DNA of 33,115 bases from Synechococcales cyanobacterium S06 (GTDB lineage: Bacteria; Cyanobacteriota; Cyanobacteriia; Cyanobacteriales; JAABRE01): positions 1 to 33,115 of the forward strand of contig JAABRE010000054.1 of assembly GCA_011391125.1 (NCBI GenBank), written 5' to 3'. The position numbers and the translations under genes are program-made. The notes under the pieces are model-generated. The model worked only from the letters and a program-made list of their open reading frames with translations. It was not told where the DNA came from and made no database searches. Positions 23,903 through 32,396 of this stretch are shown piece after piece. Numbering within the stretch: the stretch's first letter is position 1; each line of letters starts with the position of its first letter.

Positions 23903-23980
23903 TAAATTACAATCCAAAAAAACACGGGTAACTTCCCCCCTCGCGAGGGGGGGTACATCATTATATTCAGTTAAAATTCA
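23903..23980. repeat. 78-bp repeat with GC hairpin, copy 1
   Basis: The copy is identical to 24104-24181 except for one base that I can see (AATCC against AATCA). Its core is a perfect palindrome CCCCCCTCGCGAGGGGGG, followed by GTACATCATTATATTCAG. Confidence 0.9.
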
Positions 23981-24103: not shown

Positions 24104-24181
24104 TAAATTACAATCAAAAAAAACACGGGTAACTTCCCCCCTCGCGAGGGGGGGTACATCATTATATTCAGTTAAAATTCA
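24104..24181. repeat. 78-bp repeat with GC hairpin, copy 2
   Basis: Same orientation as copy 1, 201 bp further on. A degenerate member of the same CCCCCCT...CGCGAGGG type appears at 32287-32310. Confidence 0.9.
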
Positions 24182-28137: not shown

Positions 28138-28161
28138 GTAGGTGGGCAATGCCCACCCTAC
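28138..28161. repeat. REP-like palindrome
   Basis: GGTGGGC-AAT-GCCCACC is a 7-bp perfect stem within GTAGGTGGGCAAT...CCCTAC, ten bases past the TerB-like stop. It may act as terminator although no T-run follows. Confidence 0.75.
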
Positions 28162-28952: not shown

Positions 28953-28977
28953 GTAGGGTGGGCCATTTTCACCCTAC
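28953..28977. repeat. REP-like palindrome
   Basis: GTAGGGTG (28953-28960) and CACCCTAC (28970-28977) form an 8-bp stem around GGCCATTTT. It shares its arm with the element at 22249-22312. Confidence 0.75.
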
Positions 28978-29028: not shown

Positions 29029-32000
29029 ATGTCTAAACTCTTAATTTCCCAATATCACAATGAAATAGCTAAAATCATTCAATATGGTGGTAGTCGTAAT
29101 GAAACCTCGATCAGATTTGCGTTTCAAAATTTACTAAATAGTTATTGTCAAATAAAGGATTTTATTTTAATTCCGGAATTAGCTTATAAACAGGAAAAAA
29201 TTCGACCTGATGGCACAATCAAAGATGCTTTAAGACTTGATTGGGGTTATTGGGAAAGTAAGGACCAAGATGATAATTTAGATGTCGAAATTCAGAAGAA
29301 ATTGGCCAAAGGTTATCCCGATGATAATATTTTATTTGAAGATTCCCAGACGGCAATTTTAATCCAAAATCGTCAAGAAACCCTGCGAGTTTCCATGACA
29401 AATATAGACGATTTAGATAAGATTATTAATACTTTTATTAATTATACTCGACCAGAAGTTAAAGATTTTCGAGAAGCAATTGATTCTTTTAAAGCAGATT
29501 TACCGACAATTTTAACCACCTTACGGGAGTTAATTGATAATACTCTCACTCCCTCACCCCCCCAACCCCCCTCTCTCTCAGAGAGAGGGGGGAGACTCCC
29601 CTCACCCTCTGGGATTCGGGTAGGGGGAGAGGGCAACAAAGAATTTCAGCAACGATTTAAGGCGTTTTTAAAGTTATGTCAAGAGTCAATTAATTCTAAT
29701 ATAACTTCAGAAGATGTGCGGGAAATGATCATTCAACATATTTTAACTGAAGACATCTTTTTAAACATATTTAATGAGTCACAATTTCACCGTGAAAATA
29801 ATATTGCCAGGGAGTTACAAAGATTAATTGAAACTTTTTTTACTGGTAATATTAAACGCCAAACTTTAAGCAGTATTGAAAGATATTATGGTGTAATTAG
29901 ACGCACTGCTGCTAATATTGTGAATTATCATGAAAAACAAAAGTTTTTAAAGGTGATTTATGAGAATTTTTATAAAGCTTATAATCCTTTAACTGCTGAT
30001 AGATTGGGTATTGTTTATACTCCTAATGAAATTGTTAAGTTTATGATTGAAAGTACGGATTATTTAACCCATAAACACTTTAATAAATTATTAGCTGATC
30101 CGAATGTTGAAATATTAGACCCTGCGACGGGTACGGGCACATTTGTCACGGAATTAATCGAATATTTGCCGAAGGATAAACTTAAATATAAATATCAAAA
30201 TGAAATTCATTGTAATGAGGTGGCGATTTTACCTTATTACATTGCTAACCTAAATATTGAGTATTCCTATAAACAAAAAATGGGGGAATATGAGGAGTTT
30301 AATAATATTTGTTTTGTCGATACTTTAGATCATACTTCTTTTCATCAGAAACAGGGCGATTTATTTGCAATGTCTTTGGAAAATACCACTCGAATTAAAC
30401 GACAAAATGACCGCAAAATATCAGTAATTATTGGCAATCCTCCCTATAATGCTAATCAACAAAACGAAAATGATAACAATAAAAATCGTGAATATCCCGC
30501 GATAGATAAGCGAATTAAAGATACTTATGTGAAGGAAAGTACCGCTCAAAAAACGAAGGTTTATGATATGTATTCCCGTTTTTTTAGATGGGCCACTGAT
30601 AGATTAAATGATAATGGAATTGTGGCATTTATTACAAATTCATCTTTTATTGATGCGAAAACTTTTGATGGTTTTAGAAAGTTAGTCAATGAAGAATTTA
30701 GCGAAATTTATATTATTGATTTAGATGGAGATGTCAGAAAAAATCCTAAAATATCAGGTACAACTCACAATGTTTTTGGTATTCAAACAGGGGTTGCAAT
30801 TAGTTTTATGATTAAGAAAATTAATAAAGAAAAAACACCTTGTAAAATATTTTATACTTGTCGTCCTGATTTAGAATTAGCAATAGATAAACTTAAGTTT
30901 TTATCTTCCCATAAACTAGATCAAATTAATTTTAAACATATACAACCAGATAAAAATAATAACTGGATTAATTTAGCAGAAGATAATGATTTTGAGAGTT
31001 TATTATCTTTAGCAAATAAAGAGACAAAATTAGCGAAAAAAATAAGTGATCAAAAAGCAGTTTTCAAGTTGTTTTCTAATGGTGTGGTAACTGCAAGAGA
31101 TGAATGGGTAACAGATGATAATTGTGAAAATTTAACGGAAAAAATACTGTATTTTATTAACATTTATAACTCTCTTAAAGAGCAAAATAACAACAATGAT
31201 TTAGATTATAGTATTAAATGGAGTGCTACTTTAAAAAATAACTTATCAAATTCTAGTAAGTTAAATTTTGATAAAAATTTGATCATTAAATTTTATTATC
31301 GGCCTTTTATTACTAAATTTTATTACTCAGAAAAAAGATTATCTGATAGATTGACTTCTAATCATTATGAGATATTTTCTAATAATTTAAGTCAAGATAA
31401 TATAGTTATAATTGTTAATGTAGGAAATAAATCATTTAATGTTATTGTTACGAATAAATTACCTGATATTCATACCAATGGTGATAGTCAATGTTTACCC
31501 TTATATACTTATGATGAAGAAGGAAACAGACAGGAAAATATTACTGATTGGGGATTACAACAGTTTAGGGACTATTATCAACCCTCACCCCCCCAACCCC
31601 CCTCTCTCTCAGAGAGAGGGGGGAGAAGACTTTCAGACAATTCTAACTCCCCTCACCCCGTGGGAGAGTGGTTGGGGGTGAGGGCAATCACCAAAGAAGA
31701 CATTTTCTATTACATTTATGGTGTGTTACATAATCCGAAATATCGCCAAAAATATGAGTTAAATTTAAAGCGAGAATTCCCAAGAATTCCCTTTTATGAT
31801 GACTTTAATCAGTGGAAAAATTGGGGTAAAAAATTAATGCAACTGCACATTAATTATGAGACAATTACACCTTATCCTGTGAAAAGAATTGACCTAACCC
31901 CCCCTAACCCCCCCTTGACAGGAGAGGAACAAAAAGCCACCCTTTCCAAGGGGGGTTGGGGGGTTATAAAACCCAAATTAAAAGCAGATAAAACCAAAGG

Positions 32001-32268
32001 TCAAATATTAATAGATGATGTCACCACTTTAACAGAAATTCCTCCCGAAGTATGGGAATATAAATTAGGAAATCGCTCCGCAATTGAATGGATTTTGGAC
32101 CAATATAAGGAGAAAAAAGCGAAGGATTCAACCATTGCTGAAAAGTTTAATAATTATTGTTTTTCTGATTATAAAGAAACCGTAATTGACTTAATAATGC
32201 GGATTACAACGGTAAGTTTAGAAACCATGAACATTATTGCCGAAATGAATCGAGAAGCTGTACAATAG
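29029..32268 (+). CDS. Type ISP-like restriction-modification protein without helicase
   Basis: One 1079-residue polypeptide that joins nuclease, methylase and specificity parts. An N-terminal PD-(D/E)XK motif is visible: Pro60-Asp61, then Glu76-Ser-Lys78. A helical spacer follows. The N6-adenine methylase has LDPATGTGTF (motif I, 363-372) and GNPPYNA (motif IV, 469-475). FRWATDRLNDNGIVAFITN and the later SGTTHNVFGIQTGVAI fit type ISP enzymes such as LlaBIII, and EDIFYYIYGVLHNPKYRQKY (891 on) resembles their C-terminal specificity domain. LlaBIII has about 1570 residues with a helicase between nuclease and methylase; none is present here. Three palindromic elements are inserted in frame (residues about 172-203, 852-886, 956-980). 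It starts at ATG 29029. Confidence 0.85.
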   Translation: MSKLLISQYHNEIAKIIQYGGSRNETSIRFAFQNLLNSYCQIKDFILIPELAYKQEKIRPDGTIKDALRLDWGYWESKDQDDNLDVEIQKKLAKGYPDDNILFEDSQTAILIQNRQETLRVSMTNIDDLDKIINTFINYTRPEVKDFREAIDSFKADLPTILTTLRELIDNTLTPSPPQPPSLSERGGRLPSPSGIRVGGEGNKEFQQRFKAFLKLCQESINSNITSEDVREMIIQHILTEDIFLNIFNESQFHRENNIARELQRLIETFFTGNIKRQTLSSIERYYGVIRRTAANIVNYHEKQKFLKVIYENFYKAYNPLTADRLGIVYTPNEIVKFMIESTDYLTHKHFNKLLADPNVEILDPATGTGTFVTELIEYLPKDKLKYKYQNEIHCNEVAILPYYIANLNIEYSYKQKMGEYEEFNNICFVDTLDHTSFHQKQGDLFAMSLENTTRIKRQNDRKISVIIGNPPYNANQQNENDNNKNREYPAIDKRIKDTYVKESTAQKTKVYDMYSRFFRWATDRLNDNGIVAFITNSSFIDAKTFDGFRKLVNEEFSEIYIIDLDGDVRKNPKISGTTHNVFGIQTGVAISFMIKKINKEKTPCKIFYTCRPDLELAIDKLKFLSSHKLDQINFKHIQPDKNNNWINLAEDNDFESLLSLANKETKLAKKISDQKAVFKLFSNGVVTARDEWVTDDNCENLTEKILYFINIYNSLKEQNNNNDLDYSIKWSATLKNNLSNSSKLNFDKNLIIKFYYRPFITKFYYSEKRLSDRLTSNHYEIFSNNLSQDNIVIIVNVGNKSFNVIVTNKLPDIHTNGDSQCLPLYTYDEEGNRQENITDWGLQQFRDYYQPSPPQPPSLSERGGRRLSDNSNSPHPVGEWLGVRAITKEDIFYYIYGVLHNPKYRQKYELNLKREFPRIPFYDDFNQWKNWGKKLMQLHINYETITPYPVKRIDLTPPNPPLTGEEQKATLSKGGWGVIKPKLKADKTKGQILIDDVTTLTEIPPEVWEYKLGNRSAIEWILDQYKEKKAKDSTIAEKFNNYCFSDYKETVIDLIMRITTVSLETMNIIAEMNREAVQ
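29551..29633. repeat. In-frame palindromic element 1 within the type ISP-like gene
   Basis: A GC-rich segment with ends CCCTCACCCC and GGGGAGAGGG and an inner hairpin CCCCCCTCTCTCT/AGAGAGAGGGGGG. It encodes a Pro/Ser/Gly/Arg-rich peptide (PSPPQPPSLSERGGR and following) between the nuclease part and the helical spacer. Confidence 0.85.
31582..31684. repeat. In-frame palindromic element 2 within the type ISP-like gene
   Basis: The left half is the same sequence as element 1, read in the same frame (PSPPQPPSLSERGGR), but the middle is different and longer. Its outer ends are CCCTCACCCCC and GGGGGTGAGGG. It sits just before the C-terminal domain. Confidence 0.85.
31894..31965. repeat. In-frame palindromic element 3 within the type ISP-like gene
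   Basis: A related but distinct 72-bp element: CTAACCCCCCCTAACC on the left, AAGGGGGGTTGGGGGGTTA on the right, encoding LTPPNPPLTGEEQKATLSKG and a short tail. It lies in a loop of the C-terminal domain. Confidence 0.8.
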
Positions 32269-32286
32269 GGTTAATTAATAATGATG

Positions 32287-32396
32287 TCCCCCCCTATCCC
32301 GAATCGCGAGGGAAAAGTAACCAAAATAGTCCTTATTTAAAACTACTACATTTAGGTAGTAATAACTGTTAACTGATAATTGATAACTGAAATGAC
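32287..32396. repeat. Intergenic repeat shared with 2638-2762
   Basis: Order of blocks: CCCCCCCTATCCCGAATCGCGAGGG, then TCCTTATTT, then ACTAC, then TGTTAACTGATAATTGATAACTG and AAATGACA. The last block overlaps the ATG of the GUN4 gene. Confidence 0.5.

Follow-up and report, generated by a model that had tools for sequence, protein, structure and literature searches.

In-frame palindromic insertions in a DrdV-like Type IIG restriction-methyltransferase gene of a cyanobacterium, and their probable relation to a DUF559-bearing element

How a gene for a large restriction-modification (R-M) enzyme comes to carry palindromic repeats within its coding sequence and still remains open is the question raised by a locus of Synechococcales cyanobacterium S06, situated in a 33,115-nt stretch of DNA (the window). 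Three GC-rich palindromic inserts, A, B and C, lie in frame in a single gene, and the ORF is open across all of them (Table 1). An initial annotation of the window described the gene as Type ISP-like, a label that suits the coupler and TRD domains, though not the architecture. Pfam domains ISP_coupler, N6_Mtase, Eco57I and Type_ISP_C were found in the encoded protein, and PADLOC called it REase_MTase_IIG (E=6.8e-279). The nearest solved structures, DrdV 7lo5 and 7lvv, are co-linear with it from end to end (45% identity to 7lo5 in a structure search, with aligned blocks at residues 1-170, 206-851 and 886-1076), whereas the true Type ISP enzymes LlaGI and LlaBIII match only from residue 208 onward; by these alignments, the host enzyme is therefore of Type IIG and DrdV-like, with coupler and TRD domains of the Type ISP kind. 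LlaGI and LlaBIII have the methyltransferase and TRD in common with it but carry in addition a helicase between nuclease and methyltransferase, a Type ISP trait, and no helicase domain was detected in the 1079-aa protein by Pfam scan. The plan is that of DrdV, a single chain with nuclease, coupler, N6-methyltransferase and TRD, except that DrdV is without the three inserts. The methyltransferase motif I region is intact, as are the two motifs listed in Table 1.

Table 1. Positions of the host gene, its motifs, the three inserts and the six insertion sites of the gene family
Feature	Position in window	Strand	Description	Basis
Type IIG (DrdV-like) restriction-methyltransferase gene	29029..32268	+	1079 aa; carries inserts A, B and C	Pfam, PADLOC, DrdV 7lo5 full-length match
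Nuclease E-x-K motif region	29251..29262	+	WESK, residues 75-78, intact	sequence, alignment to homologues and DrdV
Methyltransferase motif IV	30436..30447	+	NPPY, residues 470-473, intact	alignment
Insert A, whole	29551..29634	+	GC-rich, palindromic, in frame
Insert A, module F1	29551..29595	+	45-bp palindrome, peptide PSPPQPPSLSERGGR, site 2
Insert A, module F2	29596..29634	+	39-bp palindrome, peptide LPSPSGIRVGGEG, site 2
Insert B, whole	31582..31685	+	GC-rich, palindromic, in frame
Insert B, module F1	31582..31626	+	identical to F1 of insert A, site 5	45/45 identity
Insert B, F1-F2 spacer	31627..31646	+	20 bp; encodes RLSDNSN with adjoining bases
Insert B, module F2	31647..31685	+	peptide SPHPVGEWLGVR, site 5
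Insert C	31895..31967	+	GC-rich, in frame; F3-family two-armed palindrome, TPPNPPLTGEEQKATLSKGGWGVI, site 6
Site 1			behind nuclease motif
Site 2			ahead of coupler; holds insert A
Site 3			ahead of NPPY
Site 4			between methyltransferase and TRD
Site 5			after TRD; holds insert B
Site 6			near C-terminus; holds insert C

Inserts A and B are composites of an F1 and an F2 module, which abut in A and are separated by the spacer in B. Their left halves (F1) agree at all 45 bases and share one reading frame, so that the common half and common peptide reported for them are confirmed. Insert C, previously described as a related 72-bp form, is likewise a palindrome of similar C/G-rich kind, but belongs to a different family (F3), its 17-bp arms being 82% complementary. 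The representative module lengths (F1 45, F2 39 and F3 42 bp) are all multiples of three, and F1 contains no stop in any of the three forward frames. In the AlphaFold model of the protein (mean pLDDT 80), residues with pLDDT <50 include 178-201, 863-883 and 966-977, which are the inserts, and all three are coil between helices or strands; the model thus places them in surface loops, where they appear to be tolerated as disordered peptides. The proposal of in-frame palindromic insertion in loops is supported by this low-confidence coil, by the uninterrupted frame, and by gaps at these places in relatives and in DrdV.

The gaps were examined by comparison with homologues in 60 related genomes and at 80 loci from public genomes. 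With relatives in other genera the alignment breaks at residues 170/203 and 851/886, and the place of insert A is occupied by about 20 residues in homologues versus 47 in the window gene, that of insert B by 23 versus 55. The expectation that the inserts would be gaps in relatives was borne out in nearly all homologues. The exceptions are two Prochloron genes of a single genome (L060 and L286, genome G022), which have an F1/F2-type pair at the site of insert A, and gene L033 of genome G012, in which related palindromes occupy each of the three sites. The initial annotation had set one outcome against insertion, namely that distant genomes share these peptides and their positions. This is seen in part, with an F1/F2-type element at one site in Prochloron and related elements in G012, but most homologues are empty. 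Divergence between occupied and empty alleles is too great for a target-site duplication to be visible. Loop length among distant homologues is variable at sites 4, 5 and 6 (percentiles 0.86, 0.77 and 0.95) but not at sites 1 and 2, so that a preference for any variable loop fails as a whole account of site choice.

The genome (4.81 Mb in 168 contigs, a fragmented and probably short-read assembly) contains more than 25 relatives of the window gene, counting genes and fragments. Twenty-three DrdV-like genes and fragments were aligned (at least six further ones turned up later), and palindromes of at least seven families were found at six sites. Site 1, directly behind WESK, and site 3, about 10 residues ahead of NPPY, are empty in the window gene. 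Site 2 holds F1+F2, F4 (GTAGAGACGTTGCATGCAACGTCTCTAC), F6 (GGTAGGGTGGGCA type) or F7 (AGAAACC..GGTTTCT type) in different paralogues, site 5 holds F1+F2 or F3, and site 6 holds F3, F4, F5 or F7, giving at least 15 combinations of site and family. Since different families occupy one site in different paralogues, the conserved feature is the insertion site and not the peptide sequence. Insertion is not always harmless, because two paralogues (L171, G000:C113:66000-76000, and L180, G000:C88:49500-56402) have an F3 palindrome at site 3 with an in-frame TGA just ahead of NPPY, and these genes are probably inactive or split. In L174 and L175 an F3-type insertion at site 1 (residue ~77) turns the nuclease WESK into WEGIK or WESIK, and judging from the altered motif the products are possibly methylases without nuclease activity. 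At site 5 of L178, L179 and L181 there is a 36-bp unit (ANLPTGEGLGVR), the copy number of which differs among paralogues, with the frame always kept.

The wider distribution of the palindromes was assessed in an unbiased sample of 27 stretches of 20 kb each (540 kb, 82% coding), picked regardless of palindromes. Fifty-five clusters of families F1-F7 were present, 46 of them intergenic, six at gene ends and only three intragenic, versus 56 clusters in the 49.9 kb of the 23 DrdV-like genes and fragments (1.12 per kb). Among the individual families, the 23-bp core of F1 occurs at 19 places genome-wide, 18 of which are in R-M genes (16 in DrdV-like genes and two in one Eco57I/MmeI-type R-M gene, the remaining place being just past the latter). 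Chance can be excluded for F1, since reversed-pattern controls gave no matches in the same genome. A whole-genome pattern search placed F3 in R-M genes at 29 of 31 places, and for F2 (0-1 mismatch) the figure was 59 of 77, with 16 places outside ORFs; here, too, the reversed patterns matched nowhere. The families of R-M genes concerned, assigned by Pfam, include the unrelated MmeI-like, Eco57I/TaqI-like and DUF7149/DUF7814 types, and the genes together sum to about 100 kb, or some 2% of the genome, which has more than 100 copies of F1-F3. R-M genes are thus the habitat of these three families in this genome, a concentration that goes beyond the initial annotation. F4 has about 63 sites, seven of them in the R-M genes concerned, and its sampled copies are intergenic. 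The F1 left half has just two matches in G012 (3.3 Mb, three contigs), both in the DrdV-like gene; the reversed-pattern control there also gave two, and the count relies on the matched places rather than on the specificity of the pattern.

Several other occurrences were recorded. The main non-R-M hosts found are large proteins encoded at loci L176, L186 and L190, with in-frame F1-type palindromes near the N-terminus and, in L186 and L190, RTX calcium-binding repeats. Genes outside R-M systems can also tolerate such insertions: two housekeeping-type genes, for GltB (glutamate synthase, L199) and a protein that is SufD-like by eye (L182:2229-3617), each carry an in-frame F3-type palindrome. The Eco57I/MmeI-type R-M gene at L170:2968-7066 contains numerous F2 copies in tandem and in frame, and a further array follows just past its stop codon. 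Within the window, a further palindromic repeat, CTTCCCCCCTCGCGAGGGGGGG, is found twice in an identical 45-bp context (23920-23964 and 24121-24165), with a related form just 3' of the R-M gene (32289-32312); F6 palindromes at 28150-28161 and 28953-28964 are intergenic, as elsewhere in the genome, and an F5 palindrome is found at 2698-2725.

A second feature beyond the initial annotation is a DUF559 nuclease domain lying between palindromes in related loci. In the MmeI-like methyltransferase gene L191, such a domain is present in frame in mid-gene, between F3-type palindromes and just before NPPF, and its paralogue L208 has a palindrome alone at this place. A search of 120 genomes for high-scoring DUF559 domains within frames longer than 360 codons recovered 11, all of which lie between palindromes by inspection, and nine of which do so by an automatic two-sided signature. 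Their hosts are DrdV-like genes at site 5 (three), MmeI-like genes (four), Eco57I-like genes (two), a DUF1156 methyltransferase-type protein (one) and L327 (one), the flanks of which match the L170-type R-M gene; the L327 frame is broken upstream, with an apparent frameshift just before the insertion. In the DrdV-like gene of G012 (L033), F1 and F2 flank the DUF559 domain at site 5, a position filled by F1-spacer-F2 in the window gene, and in L033, L324 and L326 alike the DUF559 coding segment takes the place of the 20-bp spacer of insert B. Three host families therefore show both states, palindrome alone and palindrome-DUF559-palindrome, at one and the same site: DrdV-like site 5 (the window gene versus L033, L324 and L326), the MmeI-like gene (L208 versus L191, L328 and L329) and the L170-type C-terminus (L170 versus L327). 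This pattern points to the palindromes as the two ends of a DUF559 element, of which inserts A and B may be forms without the nuclease.

The association extends to free-standing DUF559 genes. Of the 24 top-scoring matches, 18 have a palindrome within 350 bp on at least one side, as against 16 of 87 small control ORFs from other loci (Fisher 4e-7), and palindromes are found on both sides in 8/24 versus 1/87 (Fisher 1e-5). The 11 embedded domains fall into three clades and do not form one group separate from the free-standing ones. No intein domain was found in the nine occupied genes that were scanned with Pfam, only DUF559 and host domains. The genome of the window gene has seven matches to the Y1 transposase (PF01797, Y1_Tnp) and a single DUF559 gene. 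Multi-copy DUF559 as a present driver in that genome was accordingly discarded, and a recent DUF559-driven spread there is doubtful, given one such gene against the copy number of F1-F3; a large share of those copies arose when the R-M genes themselves were duplicated.

Taking these results together, inserts A, B and C are probably coding-compatible palindromic insertions of the R-M-dwelling families F1-F3 and miniature forms of a palindrome-DUF559-palindrome element. Selfish, translatable palindromes would be tolerated where they settle, in loops of defence enzymes that are large and modular. What lets F1-F3 spread and persist may be the nature of R-M genes, which are long, modular and dispensable, form a large duplicated family, recombine and move between genomes. 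The palindromes would be non-autonomous, in the manner of MITEs, with the full unit consisting of a palindrome, a DUF559 nuclease ORF and a second palindrome and inserting in frame into R-M genes; DUF559 would mobilise the palindromes, and the window copies would have been derived by loss of the nuclease. The reverse order, in which a DUF559 gene recombined into pre-existing palindromes, might also apply. More tentatively, with the balance somewhat against it, these loci may represent a class of mobile element specialised for in-frame entry into methyltransferase and restriction genes, persisting unspliced as an additional domain that the host tolerates, and leaving behind miniature copies, A, B and C among them, with DUF559 standing to the palindromes as RAYT does to REPs.

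The enrichment in R-M genes could instead be hitch-hiking, if a few old insertions were copied along with the duplication and recombination of these genes and are now inert. The more than 25 DrdV-like or ISP-like genes and fragments in the genome fit such a history, as do a site-5 composite that is common to ten paralogues even in its non-palindromic spacer, site-2 junctions shared with a Prochloron homologue, and the confinement of the element to the R-M gene in G012. However, the combinations of site and family in the DrdV-like family alone are too many for it to be easily accepted, and F1-F3 are also present in the unrelated R-M families. The ten paralogues differ by a mean of only 2.9% in the site-5 composite but by 33-46% at their fourfold-degenerate sites, which would not be expected from plain descent without constraint; homogenisation, recent copying and nucleotide-level constraint would each produce this, and the data do not discriminate between them. 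We regard ancestral insertion as unlikely. It is much harder to see the inserts as products of misassembly or as a pseudogene. Short-read repeat collapse can create false joins, and many of the contigs end inside R-M paralogues, but the window gene is intact over its 1079 codons with catalytic motifs present, and insertions of this kind recur across numerous distinct genes as well as in further assemblies, among them a G012 chromosome contig of 3.16 Mb, so an artefact is scarcely credible.

Two explanations would give the palindromes a use. As substrates for recombination they could serve the exchange of TRDs among paralogues and be kept for diversifying specificity. Backbone DNA is 90-97% identical among paralogues but the TRD (~655-840) only 40-55%, and in L171 and L176 the tract 647-854 is 96% alike while the backbone is less similar; domains have therefore been exchanged, although short-read assembly of near-identical genes may contribute to the mosaics. 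Sites 4 and 5 flank the TRD on either side, and the F1 and F2 modules are near-identical between genes. Nevertheless, breakpoints were no nearer to palindromes than expected by chance (over 73 unique bins, a median of 46 residues as against 51, p=0.22), synonymous divergence showed no general dip around site 5 and no fall toward the elements on the downstream side, and the conserved backbone by itself offers ample homology, all of which makes this role improbable. Alternatively, the peptides could be selected linkers that tune domain spacing, specificity or stability, an option raised in the initial annotation and in keeping with the preserved frame and the location of the peptides at or near domain junctions. 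This we consider very unlikely: sister genes carry differing families and peptides of other sequence or length at the same site, or a whole DUF559 domain, most homologues have no insert, and two copies introduce a stop ahead of NPPY.

The interpretation of the inserts as miniature forms of a DUF559 element can be set against known systems. In-frame palindromes are known from Rickettsia (RPE), Wolbachia and an archaeon (Methanocaldococcus), where they are stop-free and encode unstructured protein segments, and intragenic REPs occur in a number of bacteria (PMC3733652, PMC2996958). The hosts of protein-coding palindromes are varied, many of them acting in DNA synthesis and repair (PMC3733652). 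The likeness to Rickettsia drawn earlier is sound as an analogy, since A, B and C are also stop-free and in unstructured parts of the protein, and module lengths are multiples of three. It does not extend to the hosts: those of RPE are assorted and often housekeeping genes, whereas F1-F3 are found almost solely in R-M genes, the GltB and SufD copies excepted, and here several families occupy the same sites, with a DUF559 nuclease between palindromes in related loci. REP/RAYT systems (GTAG/CGTC palindromes, PMC3733652) resemble the present one in having small, many-copy palindromes, some of them intragenic, and a small associated enzyme, but they are mainly intergenic with Y1 transposases, whereas F1 (18/19) and F3 (29/31) lie in R-M genes and the enzyme is DUF559. 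MITEs share their ends with an autonomous element, and the F1...F2-type ends that enclose DUF559 in L033, L324 and L326, at the homologous site, may correspond to such a pair.

Cyanobacterial genomes contain small dispersed repeats and MITEs that are short and present in many copies; the repeats of Elhai et al. from 2008 and Nezha are said to be of this kind. The mostly intergenic F4-F6 fit the description, but F1-F3 shun other genes and fill R-M genes. Inteins and free homing endonucleases (Vsr-like EDxHD family) place a nuclease gene inside a host protein gene. The DUF559 loci likewise have an in-frame nuclease in a host gene, with occupied and empty homologues, but they are without a splicing domain, have palindromic flanks, and presumably retain the extra domain. 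No literature on a concentration of palindromes in R-M genes, or on DUF559 together with palindromes, was found in a search that left subscription journals mostly outside its range.

Intragenic palindromes have hitherto been viewed as scattered noise, and here they have a defined habitat, R-M genes, and a candidate partner enzyme. Even on a modest reading, length differences of Type IIG enzymes at these loops are due to insertion elements and not to changes in specificity. If the proposed relationship is true, DUF559, a widespread domain of unknown function, would gain a testable role, the in-frame gain of disordered insertions by proteins would be explained, and the palindromes would represent a selfish element that exploits a family of defence genes which duplicates, swaps domains and crosses species.
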